A DNA stretch of 41,225 bases from an uncultured Oscillospiraceae bacterium (GTDB taxonomy: Bacteria > Bacillota > Clostridia > Oscillospirales > Oscillospiraceae): positions 1 through 41,225 of the forward strand of contig CANREY010000010.1 of the NCBI GenBank assembly GCA_947629755.1, given 5' to 3'. The notes under the pieces are model-generated. The model was not told the origin of the DNA. It ran no database searches and saw only the letters and a list, made by a program, of their open reading frames with translations. The position numbers and the translations under genes were made by a program. Below are positions 21,971 to 41,100 of the stretch, one piece after another (the first letter of the stretch is position 1; each line of letters begins with the position of its first letter).

Positions 21971-22741
21971 ATGACCCAAAATGACCTTAGAATATACCTC
22001 ATCAGCCGCCTCATATCCGAGGAGCCGGAATACTCAGATATAGCCATACCCGACAGCGAGCTTGAGCAAAAGCGCTTACTGCGCGCCCTTATGAACCTCC
22101 GCCCCCCAAGGGCGGCCGACGCTGAGTTCCTGTCGGCGCAGGACGAGTATCTGCGGCGCGAGATAGCGAGCAAGGGAATAACCGACCTCTCCACGCTTGA
22201 CTGCGTGGAGGACGGCGTCTATCTCTGGCGGGGAGACATCACCACCCTCAGGTGCGGAGCCATCGTCAACGCCGCAAACTCCGGCCTCACCGGCTGTTAC
22301 GTCCCCTGCCACGGGTGTATCGACAACGCGATCCACACATATGCCGGCGTGGAGCTGAGGCTTGAGTGCGCCGAGCTCATGAAAAAACAGGGCCACCCCG
22401 AACCCACCGGCAGGGCGAAACTCACACGCGCCTACAACCTCCCATGCCAGTATGTCCTGCACACCGTGGGCCCCATCGTCCGCGGCCCTGTCACCGACAG
22501 CGACCGGGAGCTTCTGGCCTCCTGCTACCGCTCCTGCCTGAAGTTAGCTCAGCAAAACGGCATAAAAAGCGTGGCCTTCTGCTGTATCTCCACCGGGGAA
22601 TTTCACTTCCCCAACGACCTCGCCGCCATGATCGCCGTTGAGACGGTCCGAAAATATAGACGCGATACGGAAGTGATCTTTAATGTGTTCAAAAATACCG
22701 ACCTTGAGCTCTACCGGGAGCTTCTCGGACAGTATAAATAA
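21971..22741 (+). CDS. Zinc-type macrodomain protein-ADP-ribose hydrolase
   Basis: A 256-residue protein with an extra N-terminal helical region (1-85) and a macrodomain: GDITTLRCGAIVNAANSGL (88-106), the zinc-site segment GCYVPCHGCIDNAIH (108-122), and CCISTGEFHFP (204-214). This is the Zn-macro class, which removes ADP-ribose from protein and is found beside SirTM sirtuins. Known partners are a GcvH-like carrier and a lipoate ligase, both absent here. GGGAG precedes the ATG. The SirTM reading frame begins inside its last codons, so the two are translated together. Confidence 0.88.
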   Translation: MTQNDLRIYLISRLISEEPEYSDIAIPDSELEQKRLLRALMNLRPPRAADAEFLSAQDEYLRREIASKGITDLSTLDCVEDGVYLWRGDITTLRCGAIVNAANSGLTGCYVPCHGCIDNAIHTYAGVELRLECAELMKKQGHPEPTGRAKLTRAYNLPCQYVLHTVGPIVRGPVTDSDRELLASCYRSCLKLAQQNGIKSVAFCCISTGEFHFPNDLAAMIAVETVRKYRRDTEVIFNVFKNTDLELYRELLGQYK

Positions 22742-23564
22742 GCTAAGAGCCGCCCTCATGAGCGCCGACGCCGTAGTTATAGGCGCTGGCGCCGGCCTCT
22801 CCACCGCTGCGGGCTTTACCTATTCCGGTGAGCGCTTTACGCGGTACTTCTCCGATTTTGCCGAAAAATATGGCTTTTCCGACATGTACTCCGGCGGCTT
22901 CTACCCCTACCCCACCCCTGAGGAGTTCTGGGCCTACTGGAGCCGGTATATATACATAAACCGATACCTCGACCCGCCGGAGCGCTTATACGAAACGCTC
23001 CTCAGCCTCGTCGCGGATAAGGACTATTTCGTAATAACCACCAACGTCGACCACTGCTTTCAAAAGGCCGGCTTTGATAAAAAGCGTCTTTTTTACACTC
23101 AGGGCGACTACGGGCTTTTCCAGTGCTCCGAGCCCTGCTGTCAGGAGACCTTCGACAACGAGGATATAGTTTTACGTATGTTGCGTGAGCAGAAAAACAT
23201 GCGTATCCCCACCTCCCTGATCCCCCGCTGTCCCCACTGCGGAAGGCCCCTCACAATGAACCTCCGCTCCGACGACAGGTTCGTCGAGGATACCGGCTGG
23301 CACTCAGCGTCCGCCCGTTACGTCGATTTCCTCCGCTCCCACAACACCTCCCGCCTCCTCTTTCTTGAGCTCGGCGTCGGCTACAACACCCCCTCCATCA
23401 TCAAATACCCCTTCCACCGCATGACCGCCGAAAACAAAAAAGCCACCTACGCCTGTATAAATCTCACCTCCGCCCCCTGCCCCGGCTCCATCTCCGACCG
23501 CTCCATGATCATAACCTCCGACCTCCGCCGCGCCCTCACCGCCCTCACCGAAAAGGAGAATTAA
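22683..23564 (+). CDS. Class M sirtuin (SirTM), probable protein ADP-ribosyltransferase
   Basis: A 293-residue Sir2-fold protein. The NAD loop is VIGAGAGLSTAAGF (32-45); TTNVDHCF (119-126) supplies Asn121; and the canonical catalytic His is replaced by Gln140 in YTQGDYG, as in SirTM enzymes that ADP-ribosylate lipoylated GcvH-L instead of deacetylating. Zinc-ribbon cysteines are present (C148, C152/153 and CPHC at 183-186). The start is uncertain: ATG 22683 overlaps the macrodomain gene by 59 bases with a weak ribosome-binding site; TTG 22704 is also in frame; ATG 22758 would cut into the fold. It acts against the upstream macrodomain hydrolase as writer and eraser. Confidence 0.88.
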   Translation: MCSKIPTLSSTGSFSDSINKLRAALMSADAVVIGAGAGLSTAAGFTYSGERFTRYFSDFAEKYGFSDMYSGGFYPYPTPEEFWAYWSRYIYINRYLDPPERLYETLLSLVADKDYFVITTNVDHCFQKAGFDKKRLFYTQGDYGLFQCSEPCCQETFDNEDIVLRMLREQKNMRIPTSLIPRCPHCGRPLTMNLRSDDRFVEDTGWHSASARYVDFLRSHNTSRLLFLELGVGYNTPSIIKYPFHRMTAENKKATYACINLTSAPCPGSISDRSMIITSDLRRALTALTEKEN

Positions 23565-24518: not shown

Positions 24519-24555
24519 AAAAATCAGGCGTCCCCCTTCGGAACGCCTGATTTTT
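24519..24555. terminator. Bidirectional terminator after yitT
   Basis: Perfect 13-bp stem AAAAATCAGGCGT/ACGCCTGATTTTT with an 11-base loop, between convergent transcripts. Its right arm ends at the stop of the 127-residue membrane protein gene. Confidence 0.9.
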
Positions 24556-24938
24556 CATTTCATCAGCTCCTCGCTGAGCCTCAATATCTCCGGCGAGAGC
24601 TTCTCCCTTTTTCTTTTCGCCATGCGTGCGTATATGGGGTACGCCGCGATAACGCCTATGATGCCCACGATGCCGGCCGCGATTCCCGGAATGAAATATT
24701 CTTCCCACCCCGGAACCATCGCACAGCTCATTCCCACCCCAAAAATGAGAGCGCTCACGGTCCCCACCACCGTCGATACTACTGATGCCCCCCTTGTGGC
24801 GCTCCTGTCCAGACGACGTAGCCGCTCCAAGGTGGTCTCCTCCTTCGTCGGCGGCGCGTATTTGTCCCGGATCTTTTTGATTTCCTCCTGCTCCTTGGCG
24901 GAATAGGTATAAGTGAATGTCTCCTTCGTTTCTTCCAT
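24555..24938 (-). CDS. Small two-helix membrane protein, member of the proposed local regulon
   Basis: A 127-residue protein: an acidic, helical N-terminal cytosolic part (FTYTYSAKEQEEIKKIRDKY, RLRRLDRSAT), then two hydrophobic helices around FGVGMSCAMVPGWEEYF and GIAAGIVGIIGVIAAYP, and a charged tail. The type is common in Clostridia but has no function that I know. The GM....PxWe...GI..G.VG pattern recurs in the 122-residue protein at 27846-28214. GGAAAGGAG precedes the ATG. Its promoter carries the same 11-bp phased repeats as the two-component operon and the 122-residue gene. Probably an envelope-stress protein; this is inferred. Confidence 0.6.
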   Translation of the reverse strand: MEETKETFTYTYSAKEQEEIKKIRDKYAPPTKEETTLERLRRLDRSATRGASVVSTVVGTVSALIFGVGMSCAMVPGWEEYFIPGIAAGIVGIIGVIAAYPIYARMAKRKREKLSPEILRLSEELMK

Positions 24939-24969
24939 GACGGTTTTCTCCTTTCCAAGTTCTGCTGTG

Positions 24970-25017
24970 ATTATATCAGGCGTATGTTTGCGAAACGTTC
25001 AAGTTATGTTTGTGAAT
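24970..25017 (-). promoter_or_regulatory. Promoter with 11-bp phased repeats, for the 127-residue membrane protein
   Basis: Reading on the minus strand: ATTCACAAACA, TAACTTGAACG, TTTCGCAAACA, then 9 bp and TATAAT (24975-24970). There is no -35 hexamer; repeats end exactly 9 bp before the -10, as at 28263-28310 and 27441-27477. Direct repeats at 11-bp phase are typical binding sites of OmpR/PhoB-type response regulators. The leader is about 25 bases. Confidence 0.7.
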
Positions 25018-25690
25018 TATTAATTTTCAGATTTTTTATCTCTCTGCTCGACCTTGCAATCATATATATCGCCATGGCGATAACTACCGCGCACACCCCG
25101 CCCCCTGTCGCGCCGGTCATGACCTTGTGGAACATGGGGTCGTCCTCCCCGCCGAACCTTGCAAGCAGCGCCGTCTCCAGCGAGAGTATGGACACCGTCG
25201 CCGCCACAAGGTCGACGGCCTTTGCCGCCGACAGTATGGGACTATTGTGCTTTCTGGTCTTTACGATATTTATAACGGCGACCGTGACTGCGTAAAAGGA
25301 ATAGGCGGCCATGGCGTAAATGAGCACTCCGGGGTAGTCAAAGGCCCGGCCGTCCCGAACCATAAATATAACTATACCTGTGAGGGCCTGATTTATTATG
25401 AGCAGTACATATCCGCAAGACCGGTAGACCCTCAGCTCCCCCTCCATGTCGTTTTCGCGCCTGTACCGTATCAAAAATAGCCGCGTCAAGGCCAGAAGCG
25501 TGTAGTAGACCGCCAGCGCCACGAACCACATGGACCCGAAATATACGCCGTAAATCAGCTTTATGACTATGTAGGCGAGATTGACCGTGAGCCCAACGTG
25601 CAGCGACACCCTGTATTTAAAACGAATGTCGGTACTGTACCTCTCCCAGAAGGCCGTGCGGCGGAGCCGTTCGATAAGCCCTGTCCTCAT
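25004..25690 (-). CDS. Integral membrane protein co-transcribed with the two-component system
   Basis: A 228-residue protein with about six membrane helices (NLAYIVIKLIYGVYF, FVALAVYYTLLAL, YVLLIINQALTGIVIFM, MAAYSFYAVTVAVINIV and two more near the C terminus). No family recognised. Its ATG overlaps the kinase stop by 4 bases, making it the third gene of the RR-HK operon. By analogy with LiaF-type partners it could modulate the kinase, but no sequence similarity supports that. The C-terminal end overlaps the regulatory region of the 127-residue gene (the repeats at 25007-25017 lie in its last codons). Confidence 0.6.
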   Translation of the reverse strand: MRTGLIERLRRTAFWERYSTDIRFKYRVSLHVGLTVNLAYIVIKLIYGVYFGSMWFVALAVYYTLLALTRLFLIRYRRENDMEGELRVYRSCGYVLLIINQALTGIVIFMVRDGRAFDYPGVLIYAMAAYSFYAVTVAVINIVKTRKHNSPILSAAKAVDLVAATVSILSLETALLARFGGEDDPMFHKVMTGATGGGVCAVVIAMAIYMIARSSREIKNLKINNSQT

Positions 25691-26745
25691 CGCTCCCTCC
25701 TGATTTTCACCGTAAACGCGCTCCCCCGCCCGACCTCGCTCTCAACAAAGATCTCTCCGCCCACGATGTCCACCACCCGCTTCACCAGCGCCAGTCCCAG
25801 CCCGTTGCCCTGTGTGGCGTGGGAGGTGTCGCCCTGATAAAATTTCTCAAATATATGCTTTCCGGTCTCTTTGGAAATTCCACAGCCCGTGTCCGCCACC
25901 CGGACTGCGGCCAGCTCCCCCTCGGTTTTCAGCGTCACCGTCACCTTCCCGCCGGCCTCAGTGAACTTCAGGGCGTTAGAAAAGAGGTTATTCCAGACTA
26001 AGGCCAAAAGCTCCCCGTCCGACTGAACGGTGACCCCCTCCTCAATGTCCGTCTCGATCTCGATGCCCTTCTTCTCCCATGTGCTCTCAAAGCTCAAAAG
26101 GCACTCGGCGAGCTGCTCCCCCAGATCGTACCGCTTCGCCGCCGGGTATATCTGCTGGTTTTCCAGCCTGTTAAGCTTCAAAATATTCGTAATGAGATCC
26201 GCCAACCTCCTCGACTGCTCCGTTATCGCCCCGGCGTACTCCGCCCGTTGCACCTGAGAGAGCTCCGGGCTTTGAAGGAGTGTCCCGTAATTTCCCATCA
26301 CCGCCAGCGGCGTTTTGAGCTCATGGGACACATTGGCGATGAAGTCCGTCCTCAGCGTCTCCACCCCCGCAAGCTCCGCGGCCATGGTGTTAAAGCAGTC
26401 GATTATCTCCTCAAACCCCTCCGACGCCCCCGCGGCGGCCTTTTTGCTTATCCTGACGGAAAAATCCCCGGCCGTTATCCTCCTCGCGGCCTCCACTATG
26501 GCCCTGACCGGCCTGTCCACCATGACCTTTCGCCTGAGAACGTCTATAACTGTGCATATAGCCGCCAGAAATACGGCGTTTCCGAAGGTGGCCAGCGCCG
26601 CGCTAAACAGATTGTCCCGCGTCATCGTCACCCCCGCGGCTTTTGCGAAATAGTTTAGAAACAGGAGCATCGACGAGGTTATCACAAATGCCGTGAGCAC
26701 GAAAAACGCTGTAAAATAGCTCCAAACCGTGTGCGTCCTTCTCAT
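25687..26745 (-). CDS. Sensor histidine kinase
   Basis: A 352-residue kinase: TM1 (about 9-31), a very short outside loop (about 32-48), TM2 (about 49-68), HAMP (VDRPVRAIVEAARRIT), HisKA with NVSHELKTPL (His141) and a full ATPase domain (NNLFSNALKF, VADTGCGIS, FEKFYQG, NGLGLALVK). The loop is too short for a ligand domain, as in intramembrane-sensing kinases that watch the envelope. The start overlaps the response-regulator stop (ATGA), so the pair is cognate. Confidence 0.92.
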   Translation of the reverse strand: MRRTHTVWSYFTAFFVLTAFVITSSMLLFLNYFAKAAGVTMTRDNLFSAALATFGNAVFLAAICTVIDVLRRKVMVDRPVRAIVEAARRITAGDFSVRISKKAAAGASEGFEEIIDCFNTMAAELAGVETLRTDFIANVSHELKTPLAVMGNYGTLLQSPELSQVQRAEYAGAITEQSRRLADLITNILKLNRLENQQIYPAAKRYDLGEQLAECLLSFESTWEKKGIEIETDIEEGVTVQSDGELLALVWNNLFSNALKFTEAGGKVTVTLKTEGELAAVRVADTGCGISKETGKHIFEKFYQGDTSHATQGNGLGLALVKRVVDIVGGEIFVESEVGRGSAFTVKIRRER

Positions 26746-27413
26746 TTTATCACCGCCTTGTACCCCAGCCCGTGTACGGTCCTTATCTCAAACTCCGCGC
26801 ATTTTTCAAACTTTCCCCTGAGCTTCGTCATATATACGTCCACCGCCCTCGGCGCCGTGTTCGTCTCCACGTCCCAAAACTCGTCCATGAGCTGTGTCCT
26901 CGTAAACGTCTTTCCGGGATAGCTCAGGAGCTTATACAGTATATTAAACTCCCGCGTCGTCAGGGCAATCTCCTCCCCGCCGTAGATCGCCGCGCGCTGG
27001 TCCATGTCGAGCCTGAGCTTGCCGATCTCCAGCTTGTGGGAGGTGGCGATCTTCGCTCGCCGCAGCAGCGCCCCGATCCGCAGTAAAAGCTCCTCCAAGT
27101 CGATCGGCTTTACCATGTAGTCGTCTATCCCTATCCTGTATCCCCTCTGCTTGGAGGCGAAATCGTCCCGCGCCGTCATGAACAGTATGGGTATATCCTC
27201 ATTCAGCGCCCTCACCGTCTTCGCGAACTCATACCCGTCGATTTCCGGCATCATAATATCTGAGACGATGAGGTCAAACGTGTTCCCGTACATAGCCTCA
27301 AAGGCCTCGTTCGCCGAAAGACACCCCACCGCCTTATACCCGTTCCCGTTCAAAAACGAGCACACCGTGCGGTTTAAGTCCCTGTCGTCCTCCACCACTA
27401 ATATTTGAAACAT
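26742..27413 (-). CDS. OmpR-family response regulator, proposed master of the local repeat-promoter regulon
   Basis: A 223-residue regulator: receiver with ILVVEDDRD and phosphoacceptor Asp52 (DLIVSDIMMP), switch residues FMTARD, and a C-terminal winged helix (LTTREFNILYKLL, TRTQLMDEFWDVE, VHGLGYKAV). The ATG at 27413 has GAGGGGG upstream; longer in-frame reading enters the promoter. Its own promoter carries the 11-bp phased repeats also seen before two nearby small-membrane-protein operons, which argues for autoactivation and direct control of those genes. Confidence 0.92.
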   Translation of the reverse strand: MFQILVVEDDRDLNRTVCSFLNGNGYKAVGCLSANEAFEAMYGNTFDLIVSDIMMPEIDGYEFAKTVRALNEDIPILFMTARDDFASKQRGYRIGIDDYMVKPIDLEELLLRIGALLRRAKIATSHKLEIGKLRLDMDQRAAIYGGEEIALTTREFNILYKLLSYPGKTFTRTQLMDEFWDVETNTAPRAVDVYMTKLRGKFEKCAEFEIRTVHGLGYKAVIK

Positions 27414-27440
27414 GGAGTGGCCCCCTCGCGTTTTTCTTTT

Positions 27441-27477
27441 ATCATAGCACATAAATGTTAAAGTTTTGTTTGCGTTT
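27441..27477 (-). promoter_or_regulatory. Promoter with 11-bp phased repeats, for the two-component operon
   Basis: On the minus strand: AAACGCAAACA, AAACTTTAACA, then 9 bp (TTTATGTGC) and TATGAT (27446-27441), with TGC as an extended -10. Two units instead of three, with the second in the slot 9 bp from the -10. No -35 hexamer. Confidence 0.6.
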
Positions 27478-27489
27478 CCCCCTTTTCAA

Positions 27490-27533
27490 AAAAATTTTTT
27501 AAAAATGCGCCGCGCGATGAACCCGCCCGGCGC
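27490..27533 (-). terminator. Terminator of the 122/93-residue operon
   Basis: GCGCCG/CGGCGC stem with a 15-base loop, followed on the minus strand by ATTTTT and a further A/T-rich run, just after the stop at 27545. Confidence 0.65.
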
Positions 27534-27544
27534 TTAATGGGTTT

Positions 27545-27826
27545 TTATTGCTTTCCTTCGTCCCTTCCAATCTCCACTCCGGCTCTGGCCGCGGCCTCGC
27601 GCTGGAGCTGCTCCTCGTGAAGCCGCTTCTCCGCGTCCTCCACGCTCTCTCCCTCGCGGGTGAGGAATTTGTCCACGAACCCGTCCTCAACCTTCTTAAA
27701 GGCCCCGGTCACGCCGTTTTCAATCTTCTTGTACCCGCCTACGACGCCTTCCTCGATCTTCTTATACCCGCCGGCCAACGCGCCGGCGATCTTCTCGTTT
27801 GCCCTTACAAGCTTTGACTTTGCCAT
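27545..27826 (-). CDS. Small amphipathic-repeat protein, member of the proposed local regulon
   Basis: A 93-residue soluble protein. Three 11-residue repeats are visible: GGYKKIEEGVV, GGYKKIENGVT, GAFKKVEDGFV (about 19-51), followed by FLTREGESVEDAEKRLHEEQLQ. An 11-residue period gives an amphipathic helix that can lie along a membrane surface, as in apolipoprotein-like proteins. No known function. GGAGG lies upstream of the ATG. It starts 19 bases after the 122-residue membrane protein gene, so both are driven by the phased-repeat promoter at 28263-28310. Confidence 0.6.
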   Translation of the reverse strand: MAKSKLVRANEKIAGALAGGYKKIEEGVVGGYKKIENGVTGAFKKVEDGFVDKFLTREGESVEDAEKRLHEEQLQREAAARAGVEIGRDEGKQ

Positions 27827-27845
27827 AACTTATGTACCTCCTGAA

Positions 27846-28214
27846 TTATTTAAGTCCCTTGACCACCGGTATCAGACACAGCAGCAGGACAATTCCAACT
27901 ATGCCCACAACGATGCCCCACACCAGCATATCCCACACCATGACCATGCACATTCCCACGCCCAGTATGATGGCTCCGACGATACCGAGAACCGCCGTCC
28001 CGACCGCCTTTCCGCTCAATACGATCATGGGCTTGCCGTCCATTCTCCGGCGAATGAACACCATCGCGAGAAGGATCACCACTCCGACAGCTCCCACCAC
28101 GATGCCCTCCGTCAGCGCGTCCCACTCCGGTATAAGCCCCATGCACATACCGAGGGCAAAGAGGAGCCCGCCAACAGTACTCATGATCAACGTCACAAAG
28201 TTTTTCTTTTTCAT
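27846..28214 (-). CDS. Small four-helix membrane protein, member of the proposed local regulon
   Basis: A 122-residue hydrophobic protein made of two similar halves: GLLFALGMCMGLIPEWD with GIVVGAVGVVILL, and AIILGVGMCMVMVWDML with GIVVGIVGIVLLL. A charged cytosolic linker (RRRMDGKPM) joins them. The same pattern occurs once in the 127-residue protein at 24555-24938, so these look like paralogues, one with an internal duplication. GGAGG precedes the ATG. First gene of a two-gene operon. No function known. Confidence 0.6.
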   Translation of the reverse strand: MKKKNFVTLIMSTVGGLLFALGMCMGLIPEWDALTEGIVVGAVGVVILLAMVFIRRRMDGKPMIVLSGKAVGTAVLGIVGAIILGVGMCMVMVWDMLVWGIVVGIVGIVLLLCLIPVVKGLK

Positions 28215-28262
28215 TGAAACACACCTCCAAATTTTTTAAGTGATTTCTCACCTGATGGTTGT

Positions 28263-28310
28263 ATTGTAGCCCCTGAATGTTTGAGAAATTTTCAAATTTT
28301 GTTTGAGAAA
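28263..28310 (-). promoter_or_regulatory. Promoter with 11-bp phased repeats, for the 122/93-residue operon
   Basis: On the minus strand: TTTCTCAAACA, AAATTTGAAAA, TTTCTCAAACA, then 9 bp (TTCAGGGGC) and TACAAT (28268-28263). Outer units are identical; geometry matches 24970-25017 base for base. Confidence 0.7.
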
Positions 28311-28333
28311 TATTAAAATCCGTATCTCCCCCA

Positions 28334-28451: not shown

Positions 28452-30278
28452 TCAATCACACCCGACCTGCCCGATCTCATATCCACCCCGTCCGTCCAGA
28501 GTGATCAGCGTCCCGCCCCGCTGGCTGTCCTCGTGGGCGATACCGGGATAGGCAAGAAAGTCTATGGATTTGGAGTATACAAGATCCACGCCCTTGTAGT
28601 TGACGGCCATATTGTTCAGGTGGTCATGTCCCACAAACACCGCCTGCGTGCTTCCCTTTTCCAAAATGGCCTCAAAAAACCCGCTGTCGTTATCAGGACA
28701 GCTCACTTCCTCCCCGTTCTCCCCGAAAAGGTACCGCGCCTCCGGGTCCCCGCGCTTAAGCGCCTCGGCGGCGTCTGCAAAGGCGCGGAAAGGGATATGC
28801 ATAAAGACGAAGGACGGCACGGTCCGCCCCTCCTCGCCCGCGAGTGCGTCCACCGTCTCCCGATACCACTCGATCTGGTCTGCGTGGACGGAGTCATAGT
28901 CGTTTATCTCAGAACTGCCCGTCACGTAGTCGTTGGAGTCCACGAGGAAGCACACCCTCTCCAAGCTCCCGTCCGGGTTTTCTATGCGGATATACTGGTT
29001 ATTCCGCCCGTAGATGTCCGGCTGTGTGTCGGCATAGAGCAGAGGACAGTCCGGGTCATTTTTCATCTGCCGAAAGATACCGTTCAGTGTCTTAACATCG
29101 TACTTCGCCACTATCTCCGTGTCGTGGTTGCCGTAGACAAAGCCCCATGGGATACCCACGTTGTTCATAAACTCCGCCAGTTGCCACAGAGGCACCAGAT
29201 TGTTGGTGCTGAAGCTCTGGAGCGGTACGGGGTAGACCAGATCCCCGGTGATTATAATGAGGTCCGGCTGTGTACGGCGGATAATGTCGTAGCACGCGTC
29301 AAAGGCCCGCCGGTCAAGTCCGATGGTGGTGACGCTCCCGCCAATGTGCGTGTCCGTGAGCTGGAGAATTTTGAACCCCTCGTGATTGGCCCGCAAGGTG
29401 TAGACGCCGGTCTCCGGATCATATGTCGCCGTGCTGTGACGCTCAAAAACCGAGTAGTCCATGGCGGCGATATAATGTCCGTTGTAGTTTGTACCGTCCA
29501 GAATGACTGAGAGACACGAAAAAAGCATTACCGCAAAGGACAAAACACTCGCCAGCCTCACCGTCAGCCGCTTACGCTTGAGGTAGGCGTAGGGCCGCAG
29601 GGGCGGGTTGATGAAGATCCTCACCGCGAAATATACCGCCGCCAGCACAAGGGCCGGGAGATAGAGAACGAGACTTTCAAAAATGACCGCGCTCGCCCCA
29701 TACAGCGCCAGCACTACCGCCCAATATATGGCCCACCGCGTAATGGCCCGCCGCCGCTCCCGGACCGGGTCCGGGGCGTCCGATACGTCCCCGCCCGGCA
29801 CAAGCTCCGGCTCCACGCGGGCAAGGCGCAGCCGCCCCAGTCCCCAGAGTGCCGTCAAAAACGCCGCGGGGCAGGAAATGCCCAGCGCGATAACAGGGAC
29901 GATCCGGTCCCCGGCCAGAAGCGCCGTCAGGAAAGATACAGCCCAGACAACGCACGCCGTCAGTACCCTCCCATGGCTAAGACGTGAGCGCTCGAATGTT
30001 AAATAGTCCTCCGCCGCGTGGGTAACCTTGATTTTCCCCACAAAGGAGTGGCGAAACCAAAGGACGGCAAAGATCGCCACAAAAGCCGGAACTACCTGAA
30101 GGCCGCCGCTCACGAAAAACCGCAGGACCGGCTCAAGCTCCGTGACCACGCGCGCCTGCCGCATACTCACGGCCCATGCGGTGACCGAAAGTGCCGCGCA
30201 CCCCAGCGCTGTCCCGGCGTAGGAAATCCGGGCCAGCTCCTTTTCCACGCTCTTTAAATCATAAACGCCCTTTTCCAC
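28452..30278 (-). CDS. Membrane-bound calcineurin-like metallophosphoesterase
   Basis: A 608-residue protein: an N-terminal half with about seven or eight membrane helices, then a metallophosphoesterase domain starting near residue 310 with the metal-binding motifs LTDTHIG, TGDLVYP, GNHDTE, FMHIPF and GHDHLNN. Such enzymes cleave phosphomonoesters or diesters; the domain follows the last helix and probably faces outside, as in YkuE-like lipid/wall enzymes. I use the GTG at 30278 because GAGGAG precedes it; GTG at 30290 is too near the predicted transcription start. Monocistronic. The substrate is unknown. Confidence 0.8.
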   Translation of the reverse strand: MEKGVYDLKSVEKELARISYAGTALGCAALSVTAWAVSMRQARVVTELEPVLRFFVSGGLQVVPAFVAIFAVLWFRHSFVGKIKVTHAAEDYLTFERSRLSHGRVLTACVVWAVSFLTALLAGDRIVPVIALGISCPAAFLTALWGLGRLRLARVEPELVPGGDVSDAPDPVRERRRAITRWAIYWAVVLALYGASAVIFESLVLYLPALVLAAVYFAVRIFINPPLRPYAYLKRKRLTVRLASVLSFAVMLFSCLSVILDGTNYNGHYIAAMDYSVFERHSTATYDPETGVYTLRANHEGFKILQLTDTHIGGSVTTIGLDRRAFDACYDIIRRTQPDLIIITGDLVYPVPLQSFSTNNLVPLWQLAEFMNNVGIPWGFVYGNHDTEIVAKYDVKTLNGIFRQMKNDPDCPLLYADTQPDIYGRNNQYIRIENPDGSLERVCFLVDSNDYVTGSSEINDYDSVHADQIEWYRETVDALAGEEGRTVPSFVFMHIPFRAFADAAEALKRGDPEARYLFGENGEEVSCPDNDSGFFEAILEKGSTQAVFVGHDHLNNMAVNYKGVDLVYSKSIDFLAYPGIAHEDSQRGGTLITLDGRGGYEIGQVGCD

Positions 30279-30305
30279 CTCACTCCTCACCGCCTTTCAC
30301 CCCCC

Positions 30306-31182: not shown

Positions 31183-31251
31183 TTTTTGACAATGAGGCAG
31201 AAATTATAAGGTAGATAAGGAAAATATCAAAAAAGAGAAAGAGAAATGCAG

Positions 31252-31911
31252 ATGAAAACAATCGCTATTATTGATGACGACATACATATCGGGGACGCCT
31301 TATCTGAGATATTGGAAAACGAGGGCTACGCGGTGACCCGCGCTTATTCCGGGACCGAGGCGCTCTATCTGCTCTCACAGAATAAACCCGATTTGATCCT
31401 TCTTGATTTGATGCTTCCGGGTCTTTCCGGGGAGGAGGTGCTGCCGCGCATAAAAGGAATACCCGTCATTGTCCTGAGCGCAAAGGTGGACGTTCAGGAT
31501 AAGGTAAACCTTCTGCTTGGCGGCGCGGTGGACTATATCTCCAAGCCTTTTGACACGTCCGAGCTTCTCGCCCGTATCGCCGTGCAGTTTCGTAAGGCGG
31601 AAAAGCCTGATTCTTCTGTATTAACAGCCGGTGATTTAACATTGGATACCGTTACCTTTGATGTGACCGCGGGCGGGCAGTCTGTAAAACTGACCCGGAC
31701 GGAATATGCCATTCTCAAGCTGCTCATGACAAATCCGAAACAGACCATATCCAAAGGCGCTTTACTGGATCACATCAGTCTGGATACCCCTGATTGCACG
31801 GAGCGTTCCCTGAAACAGCATATCAGCAATCTCCGCAGAAAGCTATCGGAAGCCACCGGCGCGGATCATATTGAAACGGTTTGGGGCATCGGCTTCAAGC
31901 TGATTGAATGA
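31252..31911 (+). CDS. OmpR-family response regulator (first gene of the ABC-transporter cluster)
   Basis: A 219-residue regulator: receiver with AIIDDDIHIG, phosphoacceptor Asp52 (DLILLDLMLPG), switch region VIVLSAKVD, and winged helix (KLTRTEYAILKLLM, TERSLKQHISNLRRKL, ETVWGIGFKLIE). ATG 31252 has better spacing from AAAGAG than ATG 31246; either is possible. Codon use here shifts to more A/T-ending codons than the core. It precedes an ABC ATPase, permease and histidine kinase, the order of lantibiotic/peptide-sensing resistance modules. Confidence 0.92.
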   Translation: MKTIAIIDDDIHIGDALSEILENEGYAVTRAYSGTEALYLLSQNKPDLILLDLMLPGLSGEEVLPRIKGIPVIVLSAKVDVQDKVNLLLGGAVDYISKPFDTSELLARIAVQFRKAEKPDSSVLTAGDLTLDTVTFDVTAGGQSVKLTRTEYAILKLLMTNPKQTISKGALLDHISLDTPDCTERSLKQHISNLRRKLSEATGADHIETVWGIGFKLIE

Positions 31912-31913
31912 TT

Positions 31914-31968
31914 TTGACGAAATCTTGACTTTTTCCCGGCCGTTTTCTTGATGATCGTATTTTATAAT
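31914..31968 (+). promoter_or_regulatory. Response-regulator box and promoter of the ABC/permease/kinase genes
   Basis: Two TTGAC units at 31914 and 31925, exactly 11 bp apart, then TATAAT at 31963-31968 with no good -35 at the right distance. This fits activation by the upstream OmpR-type regulator. Another TTGACA lies upstream of that regulator near 31187, without a matching -10. Confidence 0.45.
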
Positions 31969-31998
31969 AGGGTCATCAAGTCAAGGAGGTGCCATACA

Positions 31999-32913
31999 GT
32001 GGACTATGTATTAACTACAAATGGCCTTGGAAAAAGGTATAAGCATTTTCAGGCGTTAAACGATTTGACCATGCACGTTCCCAAAGGGGCGATTTACGGC
32101 TTCGTCGGGAAAAACGGCGCCGGTAAAACGACCTTGATCCGTCTGATTTGCGGATTGCAGGACCCCACATCGGGCGAATATACGTTATACGGCAAAAGGA
32201 ATACGGACAAGGACATTATCAAATCACGCCGCCGTATGGGCGCGGTGGTGGAAACAGCGGCGATCTACATGGACATGACAGCGGAGGAAAATCTGAAGTA
32301 TCAATATCTGCTCATGGGTATTCCGTCCTTTAACGGTATTCCCGAACTGCTGAAGCTGGTGGGGTTGGAAAATACCGGGAAGAAAAAAGCAGGTAACTTC
32401 TCTCTGGGTATGAAACAGCGGCTGGGTATCGCCATTGCTTTAGCCGGTGATCCCGATTTTCTCGTTCTTGACGAGCCAGTGAATGGGCTTGACCCGCAGG
32501 GTATCGTAGAAATACGGGAGTTAATTTTGAAGCTGAACCGGGAACGGCAAATCACCATTCTGATTTCCAGCCATATTTTAGATGAGCTTTCCCGTCTTGC
32601 TACTCACTATGGCATCATTGACAGTGGGAAAATGGTAAAAGAAATAAGCGCCGAAGAACTGGAAGCCGCCTGCCGTAAGTGTACCCGTATGGAGGTAAGC
32701 GACACCGCCGTGCTTGCGCGTGCTCTGGATTCCATGAATGTAGAATATAAAATCATCTCCGCCACTGCCGCAGATGTATATGCAAAGGTCAATATTACTC
32801 AGTTGACTGTTGCTCTGGCAAAAGAAAACTGCGAGGTGCTGTCCATGCAGGAAAGGGACGAAAGTCTGGAGAGCTATTTTATATCCTTAGTGGGAGGTGC
32901 TGACCATGCGTAA
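31999..32913 (+). CDS. ABC transporter ATP-binding protein (peptide/lantibiotic-immunity type)
   Basis: A 304-residue ATPase: GKNGAGKTT Walker A, VVETAAIYMDMTAEENL Q-loop region, signature FSLGMKQR (variant LSxGMKQR), Walker B FLVLDEPVNGLDP, switch His SSHILDEL, and a C-terminal extension of about 85 residues. This is the class that pairs with a short permease to expel bacitracin- or lantibiotic-type peptides. It starts at GTG (31999), with AAGGAGG 9 bases upstream; upstream in-frame ATGs lie in the promoter. It overlaps the permease start by 8 bases. Confidence 0.9.
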   Translation: MDYVLTTNGLGKRYKHFQALNDLTMHVPKGAIYGFVGKNGAGKTTLIRLICGLQDPTSGEYTLYGKRNTDKDIIKSRRRMGAVVETAAIYMDMTAEENLKYQYLLMGIPSFNGIPELLKLVGLENTGKKKAGNFSLGMKQRLGIAIALAGDPDFLVLDEPVNGLDPQGIVEIRELILKLNRERQITILISSHILDELSRLATHYGIIDSGKMVKEISAEELEAACRKCTRMEVSDTAVLARALDSMNVEYKIISATAADVYAKVNITQLTVALAKENCEVLSMQERDESLESYFISLVGGADHA

Positions 32914-33844
32914 ATGTCTATCCGCTGAGATTTACCGGTGCAGACGCAGCACCCTCTTCTGGCTGATGCTCCTTGCTTCCGTCCTTGCCGGTGTATTTTA
33001 TGGCATTGTCTCTATGAGCGGCTCCTTTGAAGATATATTCGTTGTGCCATTGTTTGTTATTTCTGCCGCTTTTATTTCTCTGAACACGGGAAGGGAGTAC
33101 ACAGACAACACCATTCGCAACAAAATAATAATTGGAGCCCCCAAGACTGCCGTTCTGCTCTCCAAGCTGGTATTCGATGTTGGGACCGGCGTTCTCTTCT
33201 GCGCCGCTTTTTTGGCTCCGTGCGCGATCATTCTGTCCTTCGGCGTCCTCTCTAAATTACCGGCATCTGTGCTTTGCTGGACGTTGACCGGCCTTGTTTT
33301 GCTCTCCGTTGTCTGGGCCGTGCTGTTTACAGTCGTCAGTATGCTGACCTCGGCAAAGGGCGTTGGCGGCATTATAAACTTTGTCGTAATAATCGCCGTC
33401 ATGCTCCTTGCCTACCAGCTGGAATCTATCCTCAGACAGCCGGAATTTATTAACACAACTGAACATTCCATGGTACAGATGACCCCGGAGGAGGTCAAGC
33501 AGATCCAAGAGGGAACATATCAGGGAAGCTATTCCGATGCGACTGATGAAAACGGTCAAGTGACGTATTATAAACCCGTTCTCACCAATACGGAACAAAA
33601 GCCTAATCCGAAATATGTAAAACAACCTTTACGTGGGATTTTGACGCATTTGGACTCTATGCTCCCCAACGGCCAGATGAATGAATATGTTTCATGCCTG
33701 TATCACCATGCGGTCGTCGCGTCGGAAGCTGAGCCGTTCGACGATTACCCCCGCTTGAAAACATTTCCGCTGTATTCATGCCTTGACATTCTCCTCCTGT
33801 CAGGCGTCGGCCTGATACTATTCCGAAAAAAAGAAATTCGATAA
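32906..33844 (+). CDS. ABC transporter permease
   Basis: A 312-residue membrane protein of the ABC-2 type: an N-terminal helix (TLFWLMLLASVLAGVFYGI), FVVPLF-like second helix, NTGREYTDNTIRNKIIIGA (the cytosolic loop typical of lantibiotic-immunity permeases), four more helices and a large outside loop (about 175-275) before the final helix. The ATG at 32906 is used since GGGAGG is 8 bases upstream. It forms a transporter with the preceding ATPase. Confidence 0.85.
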   Translation: MRKCLSAEIYRCRRSTLFWLMLLASVLAGVFYGIVSMSGSFEDIFVVPLFVISAAFISLNTGREYTDNTIRNKIIIGAPKTAVLLSKLVFDVGTGVLFCAAFLAPCAIILSFGVLSKLPASVLCWTLTGLVLLSVVWAVLFTVVSMLTSAKGVGGIINFVVIIAVMLLAYQLESILRQPEFINTTEHSMVQMTPEEVKQIQEGTYQGSYSDATDENGQVTYYKPVLTNTEQKPNPKYVKQPLRGILTHLDSMLPNGQMNEYVSCLYHHAVVASEAEPFDDYPRLKTFPLYSCLDILLLSGVGLILFRKKEIR

Positions 33845-33853
33845 GGGGTTTTC

Positions 33854-34735
33854 ATGGAACATTTGCTGCTGCTCATCATCGGAATACTGTTTCTCATCAT
33901 CTTTGCCCTTCTCGCAAAGATTTATTTCCTGCGCCGTTCCGCGCATGAGATCGCAGAAGCGTTCCGTGATAGATTGGCAGAAAATACTAACACTCTTATC
34001 GACATTTCCTCCCGCGACCGGTATATGCGTAGTCTTGCGAACAGCGTGAATACTGAGCTCCGGACCCTCCGGGACAAGAGGCACCGGTATGAACAGGGGG
34101 ATATGGAGTTGAAAGAAGCTGTCACCAACATTTCCCATGATCTGCGCACGCCCCTGACCGCCATCTGCGCGTACCTTGATTTATTGGATCGAGAAGAAAA
34201 AAGCGAAAAGGTCCGGCTGTATCTGGCGCAAATCCAAAACCGGGCGGAGGTGCTTAAAAATCTTACGGAGGAGCTGTTTCATTATAGCGTCGTTACCACT
34301 TCTCAGGAGCTGAAACCCGACCGCGTGAATGTGGTCCATATTCTACAGGAAAGTCTGTTATCCTTTTATGGAGTGATGCGGGAAAAGGAGATCCGGCCGC
34401 AGATCGATCTTCCGGAGGTGCCGGTCTATCGTGATTTGGATATCAATGCCTTAAACCGTATTTTTTCCAACATTATAAGCAACGCCTTGAAATATACAGA
34501 CGGGGATTTCTCCGTCTGTATGAAGGAAGACGGGAGCATTGTATTTTCCAATCGCGCGGAAAGCCTGAATACCGTTTCTGTCGGACGGCTGTTCGACCGC
34601 TTCTACACAGTAGAGGCGCATCGTAATTCCACAGGATTAGGGCTATCTATCGCAAAAAATCTTACCGAACGCATGGGCGGCTTGATCGACGCTGATTATA
34701 CCGATGGAAAATTATTCGTAACAGTGCAATTCTGA
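33854..34735 (+). CDS. Sensor histidine kinase with one membrane helix and a divergent ATPase domain
   Basis: A 293-residue kinase: one N-terminal helix (about 4-26), a coiled linker, HisKA with NISHDLRTP (His95), N-box NIISNALKYT, F-box LFDRFYT and G2 box TGLGLSIAK. The usual G1 box (DxGxG) is absent: the region reads VFSNRAES. That pattern is shared by a group of small kinases next to peptide-exporting ABC transporters, so it may still work. With only one membrane helix it probably senses through the permease. Ten bases separate it from the permease gene; it completes the RR-ATPase-permease-kinase operon. Confidence 0.88.
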   Translation: MEHLLLLIIGILFLIIFALLAKIYFLRRSAHEIAEAFRDRLAENTNTLIDISSRDRYMRSLANSVNTELRTLRDKRHRYEQGDMELKEAVTNISHDLRTPLTAICAYLDLLDREEKSEKVRLYLAQIQNRAEVLKNLTEELFHYSVVTTSQELKPDRVNVVHILQESLLSFYGVMREKEIRPQIDLPEVPVYRDLDINALNRIFSNIISNALKYTDGDFSVCMKEDGSIVFSNRAESLNTVSVGRLFDRFYTVEAHRNSTGLGLSIAKNLTERMGGLIDADYTDGKLFVTVQF

Positions 34736-39939: not shown

Positions 39940-40980
39940 TTACTTGACGACGTTCTCGCAGTAACGCATGAGGATAGTCGCCAACTGGGCGCGATTGGAG
40001 CTGTTGGACGGAGACAGCGTTGTGGTGCTGGTCCCGGTGATGACATTCTCGGCATTTGCCCACTCCATGGCCTCCTCGGCCCAAGGGGAAACCTTGCCGG
40101 CGTCGGTGTAGCCGGACAGGTCGGCGCTGGTGGCGGACGCTACGCCCTTGTACTCCGCATAACGGAACATGACGGCGGCCATCTGCTCACGGGTCATGGC
40201 GTCGTTCGGAGCGAACTTGGTGTCGGTGTGGCCGTACACGATGCCGTGTGCTTCAGCCCATGCCACCGCCTCGGTGTACCACTGGCCGGAGGGCACGTCG
40301 GCAAAGCCGCCGTTGCCGCTGACACTGGGATTGCCCTCGATACGGTACAGGACGGTCACGACCATGGCGCGGGTGGTAACGGCGTTCGGAGCGAACTCTC
40401 CGTCGCCGACACCGGCCATCAGTCCGTTGTCGTAGACGTACTTCACCGCTTCAGCGTACCAGGCATCTGCCGGAACATCAGCAAAGATGTCGGTAACGGT
40501 CGGTCCGGTCACCGGAGTGCCACCGCCGCCGCCACCGCCGCCGCTGGTGGCGGTCGCAAACACGGCGTGAATGGTAAGGTCATCGGTTATATTGATTTCC
40601 TTGGTCACTTCTTCGTTCACAGCCCCGTTGGCGGTGGAGAATCGGTGCTCGGTCGTGTCCTGCCCTATCGTGTAATAGGATTGGGCATTGTCGAAGTGAT
40701 AGCCAGTATTCGGCTTGAACACTACCTTCACTTTCGTGTTAGGCGCGACGTAGTATGTTGTGTCCTTGTCAAGAACGTGTGGTTCGGCGTCATCGAGGAT
40801 TTCGTAGTAAATCGTAACTGTGCCGTTTGTAACAGTATCCGCCGTGACCGTATAATATACGTTGTCATCATCATCAACTGCCGAAGCGCTCAAGGCCATA
40901 ACAGGCAGCATGGCGAACACCATGCACAGCACCAACACCTTCGCGATAAACGCCTTTTTTATTGGTTTGACTGTTTTCAC
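39940..40980 (-). CDS. Secreted SLH-domain surface protein
   Basis: A 346-residue exported protein: signal peptide (KKAFIAKVLVLCMVFAMLP ending ALSASA), a small beta domain (about 40-165: VYYTVTADTV, TVTIYYEILDD, GYHFDNAQ, like MucBP/bacterial repeat modules), a run of eight glycines, then three SLH repeats (FADVPADAWYAEAV, FADVPSGQWYTEAV, YTDAGKVSPWAEEAM) that bind wall polysaccharide. Start is uncertain: GTG 40980 gives a normal signal peptide, though GGAG is 16 bases upstream; ATG 41100 adds about 40 Arg-rich residues that do not fit. A structural or adhesin-like surface protein. Confidence 0.75.
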   Translation of the reverse strand: MKTVKPIKKAFIAKVLVLCMVFAMLPVMALSASAVDDDDNVYYTVTADTVTNGTVTIYYEILDDAEPHVLDKDTTYYVAPNTKVKVVFKPNTGYHFDNAQSYYTIGQDTTEHRFSTANGAVNEEVTKEINITDDLTIHAVFATATSGGGGGGGGTPVTGPTVTDIFADVPADAWYAEAVKYVYDNGLMAGVGDGEFAPNAVTTRAMVVTVLYRIEGNPSVSGNGGFADVPSGQWYTEAVAWAEAHGIVYGHTDTKFAPNDAMTREQMAAVMFRYAEYKGVASATSADLSGYTDAGKVSPWAEEAMEWANAENVITGTSTTTLSPSNSSNRAQLATILMRYCENVVK

Positions 40981-41100
40981 GATATTTCTTATATAACTCC
41001 TTTCAGTTATATTTGCCCGCTTTGCGGGTCTTTCTTCCCGCGCCCGTGCCTTATGCCCGTGCCTGGGAAACGGGTTCTGGAGTTGGGTGAGCGTACGCAT

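Follow-up and report, generated by a model that had tools for sequence, protein, structure and literature searches.

Does a response regulator that is encoded amid small membrane proteins in an uncultured Oscillospiraceae bacterium control its own gene together with theirs, and if so, to what end? This question is raised by a locus in contig CANREY010000010.1 (assembly GCA_947629755.1), of which positions 1 to 41,225, the whole stretch analyzed, are called the window in the following. The locus comprises a module of six genes for the response regulator RR, the histidine kinase HK, the membrane proteins M122, M127 and M228 and the 93-residue protein P93 (Table 1). An earlier reading made from the letters of the window alone (the sequence-only reading) had held that the regulator activates itself and both effector operons. 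The tie of RR to the three promoters is borne out by conserved phased repeats, and autoregulation of RR along with its control of both small-membrane-protein operons is well supported by the sequence comparisons given below; activation by RR and envelope stress as the signal are what we infer. All in all we consider it highly probable that the locus is a compact self-regulated two-component regulon, with PhoB-like activation, a signal from the bilayer and membrane-acting effectors as its proposed mechanism.

Phased operators in the window and in relatives

The promoter of the operon of M122 and P93 reads TTAATA-n5-CAAACA-n5-TGAAAA-n5-CAAACA-n9-TACAAT, that of M127, the operator of which overlaps the 3′ end of the M228 gene, reads TTAATA-n5-CAAACA-n5-TGAACG-n5-CAAACA-n9-TATAAT, and that of the RR-HK operon reads CAAACA-n5-TTAACA-n9-TATGAT. 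Three minus-strand sites with units in 11-bp phase and the last unit 9 bp before the −10, as described in the sequence-only reading, are thus found at all three promoters. The unit nnnCnCAAACA given there holds for the two effector promoters, at which CAAACA is nearest to the −10, but not for the RR promoter, where TTAACA is nearest and CAAACA lies one turn further away. Likewise the effector arrays are indeed phased at 11 bp, but 22 bp separate their CAAACA copies, TGAAAA or TGAACG lying in between, and a fourth unit, TTAATA, 11 bp further upstream, was absent from the earlier description. Widened to [CT][AGT]AACA, the unit fits the RR promoter as well, TGAAAA, TGAACG and the outermost TTAATA being looser variants. 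At the RR and M127 promoters TGN precedes the −10, and this extended −10 can account for their missing −35; the M122 promoter has neither TGN nor a −35 match.

A search pattern of two directly adjacent CAAACA-type units gave no sites and one control match. This failure is explained by the actual arrangement, in which hexamers of two types take turns, and the pattern was replaced by others taken from the three promoters. In the host genome (2.2 Mb, 130 contigs) the exact effector core is present only at the two effector promoters, and allowing 2 mismatches adds two places as against 6 control matches. When the −10 is included, the effector pattern finds these two promoters only, even at 3 mismatches, while the reversed pattern serving as control gives 3 matches. 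With the patterns used there are only three sites in the host genome.

We then turn to the relatives, a sample of 149 genomes with the host genome included. RR is matched at E <=1e-60 in 50 of them; 40 carry an orthologue (identity of at least 59%, plus genome G017 with 87% over part of a gene cut at the contig end), and the 10 others, with best hits of 44-50%, were excluded as paralogues. The regulator box, searched as CAAACAnAACnTTAACAWT, occurs in 17 of the 149 genomes, once in each and with 0 control matches, and according to tblastn all 17 boxes precede the RR orthologue (with an intervening gene in G018 and a 220-bp gap in G031). The effector pattern, CAAACA-n16-CAAACA-n9-TAnnnT, gives 24 sites in 18 genomes, again with 0 control matches. 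These sites are followed by M127-type genes (9), by M122 or P93 (10) and by an ABC ATPase (2); the other 3 stand before a 157-residue protein, a relative of which follows P93 in G001, before a 231-residue membrane protein and, in G110, before no gene that could be found. The site in G110 was taken as chance, as was a minus-strand site in locus L187. On the question, raised in the sequence-only reading, whether the motif co-occurs with the kinase pair, the counts agree with such a link: a strict box is found in 27 of the 40 genomes with RR and in 2 of the 109 without it (Fisher p about 1e-17, an optimistic value as the genomes are related).

A fresh sample of 391 class-level genomes, chosen blind to the module genes, was scanned with the regulator-type pattern derived from the 149 genomes. 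Including the site of the window itself it yielded 14 sites, versus 2 control matches; 13 precede RR orthologues of 74-100% identity (one cut at the contig end) and one precedes M228. Two outcomes had been named beforehand as speaking against a regulon, a motif common genome-wide and a motif not conserved in relatives. Neither was observed, the motif being rare in the host genome and the boxes recurring in relatives with 0 controls among the 149 genomes.

The phasing is also seen where the strict boxes are missing. De-duplication left 259 regions upstream of module genes that have no strict box. The hexamers there are spaced 43 times by 11 bp, 25 times by 22 bp and 10 times by 33 bp, no other spacing between 6 and 44 bp occurs more than twice, and the reverse strand has 0 at 11, 22 or 33 bp. 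A pair at 11 or 22 bp is present in 111 of 338 upstream regions, a set that was not de-duplicated, and periods of 8, 9, 10, 12, 13 and 14 bp give 2, 1, 2, 0, 0 and 3. In 77 unique segments the last unit is followed by TANNNT at a distance of 9 bp; at 4, 6, 11 and 14 bp the numbers are 5, 2, 10 and 14, and for the rest of the range 4-14 bp they are 0. The pair followed by n9 and TAnnnT was also searched in 1.79 Mb of loci. Since these loci had been selected for carrying module genes, it is the spacing controls which carry the weight here: there are 105 unique sites, whereas hexamer periods of 9, 10, 12 and 13 bp give 1, 2, 0 and 0 and distances to the −10 of 5, 6, 7, 8, 10, 11, 12 and 13 bp give 0, 3, 1, 0, 0, 11, 0 and 1. 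By program 84 of the 105 sites precede module genes. The remaining 21 were sorted by reading the downstream sequence, and 17 of them do so too if the ABC ATPase is counted (8 before an M228-RR-HK operon, 5 before RR, one of these with an intervening gene, and 4 before the ABC ATPase, two of which are one overlapping site); 4 are followed by non-module genes.

From 44 sites each we derived a consensus for the effector operators, TTAAtA-tTTCt-CAAACA-aAAct-t.AAca-TTtc.-CAAACA-n9-TA.aAT, and one for the regulator operon, CAAACA-AAACT-TTAACA-TTTg.GTGtTATaAT. No −35-like hexamer is conserved by eye in either. Judged from these alignments, the putative effector operators are a 22-bp repeat in which TTAAYA- and CAAACA-type hexamers alternate, and the regulator operator is a TTAAYA/CAAACA pair moved one turn toward the −10, with a TGn that we read as an extended −10.

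The gene order P93-M122-M228-RR-HK is found in many Lachnospiraceae. Among 7 loci of named species or strains that were re-examined, phased hexamers are present in D16-51 (L228), which carries P93, M122, M228, RR and HK, before M228-RR-HK and in CHKCI006 (L237) before M122. In genome G001 the module is present twice, on separate contigs (L035 and L127); the second copy shows no M122 match in the fetched stretch and includes an ABC transporter preceded by the effector box.

Several observations weigh against a regulon of this kind. The genomes are related, and the counts are thus not independent. Neither strict box is present in 13 of the 40 genomes with an RR orthologue, G012 (84% complete) has the M127 box and no RR was found in it, and in G002, G025, G028, G061 and G079 the fetched stretch has RR-HK but none of these effectors. 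A phased pair is missing from 227 of the 338 upstream regions, in part because many of the genes are internal to operons. In five of the 7 named loci the 400 bp that precede each module gene are free of phased pairs; one of the five belongs to a metagenome-assembled genome of Enterocloster bolteae (L209) with P93, M122, M228, RR and HK. Finally, the HAMP match of HK is below threshold (22.0 versus a cut-off of 25).

Table 1. Module genes and their promoters in the window
Feature	Positions	Strand	Basis or elements
RR, OmpR/PhoB-type response regulator, 223 residues	26742..27413	minus	Pfam; orthologues in 40/149 genomes; alignment
HK, histidine kinase, 352 residues	25687..26745	minus	two transmembrane helices, short loop, HAMP sub-threshold, HisKA, HATPase
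M122, 122-residue membrane protein	27846..28214	minus	its halves and M127 match one another (tblastn)
P93, 93 residues, tandem 11-residue repeats (KKIEEGVVGGY type)	27545..27826	minus	no transmembrane segment predicted
M228, 228-residue multi-pass membrane protein	25004..25690	minus	overlaps end of HK gene; module member in relatives
M127, 127-residue membrane protein	24555..24938	minus	charged N-terminal half and one two-helix unit
Operator/promoter of 122/93 operon	28263..28316	minus	TTAATA 28316-28311, CAAACA 28305-28300, TGAAAA 28294-28289, CAAACA 28283-28278, 9 bp, −10 TACAAT 28268-28263
Operator/promoter of M127	24970..25023	minus	TTAATA 25023-25018, CAAACA 25012-25007, TGAACG 25001-24996, CAAACA 24990-24985, 9 bp, TGA-TATAAT, −10 24975-24970
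Operator/promoter of RR-HK operon	27441..27472	minus	CAAACA 27472-27467, TTAACA 27461-27456, 9 bp, TGN-TATGAT, −10 27446-27441

Regulator, kinase and effector proteins

The assignment of RR to the OmpR/PhoB family in the sequence-only reading is confirmed by Pfam matches to a receiver domain (Response_reg, 87.4 bits, cut-off 30.2) and to the winged-helix domain Trans_reg_C (72.3 bits, cut-off 26.2); as far as sequence can tell, RR thus combines membership in this family with operators of direct repeats at 11-bp phase. The best NCBIfam matches are far below their cut-offs, with 171.7 versus 270 bits for RR and the PhoB model and 206.1 versus 400 bits for HK and PnpS. By hydropathy and alignment the helices of HK lie near residues 12-30 and 49-67, and the loop of about 10-18 residues leaves no room for an extracellular domain. 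Intramembrane-sensing kinases are defined by a pair of transmembrane helices, a connecting loop shorter than about 25 residues and the lack of an extracellular domain, and by its predicted topology HK is one of them.

No effector of the window (M228, M127, M122 and P93) is above a Pfam cut-off. Membership of M122, M127 and M228 in a Pfam family was rejected, their matches being weak and spread over unrelated families. The matches of M122 to itself and to M127 suggest that M122 may consist of two copies of a two-helix unit. A second, more divergent paralogue of M127 (38% identity) is a neighbor of P93 in two loci, L053 and L110, and follows the effector box in L114, and this placement suggests that M122 and M127 can replace each other.

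The hydrophobic moment of P93 peaks at 96.6-97.5 degrees, nearer to the 98.2 degrees of an 11/3 helix than to 100, and when four sequences were shuffled 1000 times each, none of the shuffles attained the moment of its original at 98.2; the hydrophobic face is made up of I/V, V/L/F and Y/F. The relatives have clean 11-residue repeats as well, in varying number (one fewer in G011 and G112, more in G125, G013 and G123). At least 390 loci were confirmed in a scan of genome records with the P93 alignment, and the best 80, which were kept, come by title mostly from Lachnospiraceae and Oscillospiraceae metagenome-assembled genomes along with some strains; at the phylum level P93 is sparse (8 of 398 genomes at E <=1e-8). 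Eleven-residue amphipathic repeats with 11/3 periodicity are also features of synuclein and perilipin, for example perilipin 4 (PMC5889406). Homology to synuclein was rejected, since the window protein reaches 13.4 bits against the Pfam family PF01387 with its cut-off of 23.3; 3 of 19 P93 members match this family at E up to 0.1, the best at 0.0081. What we claim is an apparent likeness in repeat period and amphipathicity only.

An ABC ATPase recurs as an additional gene. It has the effector box in G001 and G126 and a version of the box with looser hexamers in L120 and L122, and it follows P93 in G058. Among the NCBIfam models it comes closest to that of the lantibiotic-protection ATPase (204 bits, cut-off 310), and the host genome contains no close copy, three matches being at 37-46% identity.

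Further features of the window may be listed briefly. The 122/93 operon is closely preceded, in the same orientation, by a gene (28452-30290) for a metallophosphoesterase (Metallophos) fused to a multi-helix membrane part. At 21971-23564 an open reading frame with a Macro domain (Pfam Macro) overlaps a second one, which is sirtuin-like by eye and without a Pfam match at 1e-5; the two may be a macrodomain-linked sirtuin pair. A protein with three S-layer homology (SLH) stretches is encoded at 39940-41100.

Mode of control and signal

The alternative that survives best takes the regulon as real and the signal as something other than envelope stress, for example a gut lipid, a bile compound or a metabolite. 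We regard this as possible, if not as the favored explanation. Envelope stress rests on the kinase topology, the membrane-type effectors and the occasional ABC transporter; this very combination of short-loop kinases with small membrane effectors is typical of envelope-stress systems, LiaS and the Bce systems among them, and this speaks for envelope stress.

Alternatively RR could bind the repeats and repress, the module being released on the signal. As the sites extend over the −35 region, a protein sitting on them could obstruct RNA polymerase, and owing to their TGN the promoters of RR and M127 could be transcribed unaided. The M122 promoter, with neither TGN nor a −35 match, should however be weak without help from a regulator, and the fixed 9 bp to the −10 in the 77 unique segments is just what an activator contacting sigma needs. 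For Pho regulators a review gives both direct repeats of 11 nt and a contact to sigma (PMC4415409). Repression therefore appears unlikely to us.

A quite improbable reading, more so than repression, is that the boxes belong to another OmpR-type regulator such as PhoP or WalR and that the local RR is merely one of its targets. TTAACA resembles the half-sites of PhoP and WalR, and the top NCBIfam matches of RR and HK are the PhoB model and PnpS, though far below cut-off. Against this reading stand the scarcity of strict boxes in genomes without RR (2 of 109, versus 27 of 40 with it), the expectation that PhoP or WalR regulons would be wider than two or three operons, and the genes downstream of the 24 exact effector sites in the 149 genomes, among which reading of the open reading frames by eye revealed a phosphate uptake gene in 0 of 24 cases. 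That the repeats, A-rich and in phase with the helix as they are, constitute an AT-rich curved or UP-element-like promoter feature and no regulator site is hardly credible, as the units are strand-specific with a fixed hexamer and the pattern is absent elsewhere in the host genome at 3 mismatches and tracks one regulator gene.

In the self-activating regulon which we favor, a membrane disturbance felt within the bilayer would turn on HK, and phosphorylated RR would occupy its own promoter as a single dimer and the effector promoters as two. Bound RR would take over the −35 contact and activate transcription in the manner of PhoB. Autoregulation would give a feed-forward, the extended −10 would ensure a basal supply of sensor, and the longer effector operators may need more active RR. 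P93 could then coat the membrane surface as an amphipathic 11/3 helix with M122, M127 and M228 as integral partners, to which some relatives would add an ABC exporter most similar to those of lantibiotic protection.

Known systems and exchange of the regulator

Control by Pho boxes (PhoB/PhoP in E. coli and B. subtilis) shares with the module the OmpR/PhoB-type regulator, direct repeats of 11 nt and, for the Pho systems, a described interaction with sigma (PMC4415409), but the hexamers differ and the targets here are small membrane proteins, not phosphate genes. An assignment to PhoPR/PhoBR was dropped, both RR and HK being below the equivalog cut-offs and the effector sites preceding no phosphate uptake gene, as said above.

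The sequence-only reading had compared the module with LiaRS and Psp. With LiaFSR it has in common a short-loop kinase, small membrane effectors and a self-regulated operon. The regulator of LiaFSR, LiaR, belongs to the NarL type, and the core of that system includes LiaF and LiaH; RR by contrast is of OmpR type, and Pfam scans of the six module proteins gave no LiaF-, LiaH- or PspA-type match, for which reasons an assignment to LiaRS was dropped. The logic of a membrane-stress response and an amphipathic-helix effector that possibly sits on the membrane surface would recall Psp. P93 is, however, a short 11-mer repeat protein, M127 reaches 14.6 bits against PspM (cut-off 80), and for want of any PspA_IM30 match among the module proteins an assignment to Psp was dropped as well. 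Of the proposed comparison a functional likeness is at best retained.

An OmpR-type regulator with a short-loop kinase is also typical of BceRS, and in some relatives the effector box stands before an ABC transporter. BceRS modules are further marked by an ABC transporter next to them that has a large-loop permease. The module of the window, however, contains no transporter, and the recurring ABC ATPase is nearest to the lantibiotic-protection model. The window does encode a set of OmpR-type regulator, ABC ATPase, ABC-2 permease and histidine kinase on the plus strand (31246-34735), which has no effector box; the permease matches ABC2_membrane_4 just at the cut-off. As the ABC genes (31948-33844) belong to this separate set and none lies within the module, an assignment to BceRS was dropped. 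Among titles and first lines of abstracts, at hand for part of the literature matches only, there was no description of the module, which is not proof that it is unpublished.

In 14 of the 135 loci compared, M122 heads a row of genes with M228 and P93 and adjoins a divergent TetR-type gene, the product of which has 51-100% identity to that of L052, and no RR is present in these loci (L044, L049-L052, L128-L130, L132, L133, L216, L226, L230 and L234; L044 is the same DNA as L234, leaving 13 distinct loci). TetR_C_8 is above the cut-off in both proteins tested. Distant TetR-type matches of 26-33% lie elsewhere in the locus in L198 and L205. By eye, palindromes like CAACAnnTGTTG replace the phased hexamers at the promoters of the 14 loci, 8 of which have the exact core AACAnnTGTT. 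As a TetR-type neighbor takes the place of RR-HK, effectors and regulators are separable, and that the effectors are kept together through the swap suggests that they form one functional unit. We therefore put forward, as a tentative and quite conceivable proposal, that a membrane-protection response of gut Clostridia may be defined by its effectors, with P93 as a coat analogous to synuclein and perilipin acting with M122, M228 and M127 on the stressed membrane, and that this cassette would be placed under a self-activating two-component system or a TetR-type repressor depending on the lineage.

Few envelope-stress circuits have been defined in gut Lachnospiraceae and Oscillospiraceae, bacteria which live among bile, host peptides and bacteriocins. 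The module described here offers a regulon whose operators follow a precise grammar, along with a candidate regulator and four unnamed effector families, and P93 raises the question whether bacteria protect their membranes with synuclein-like repeat helices.

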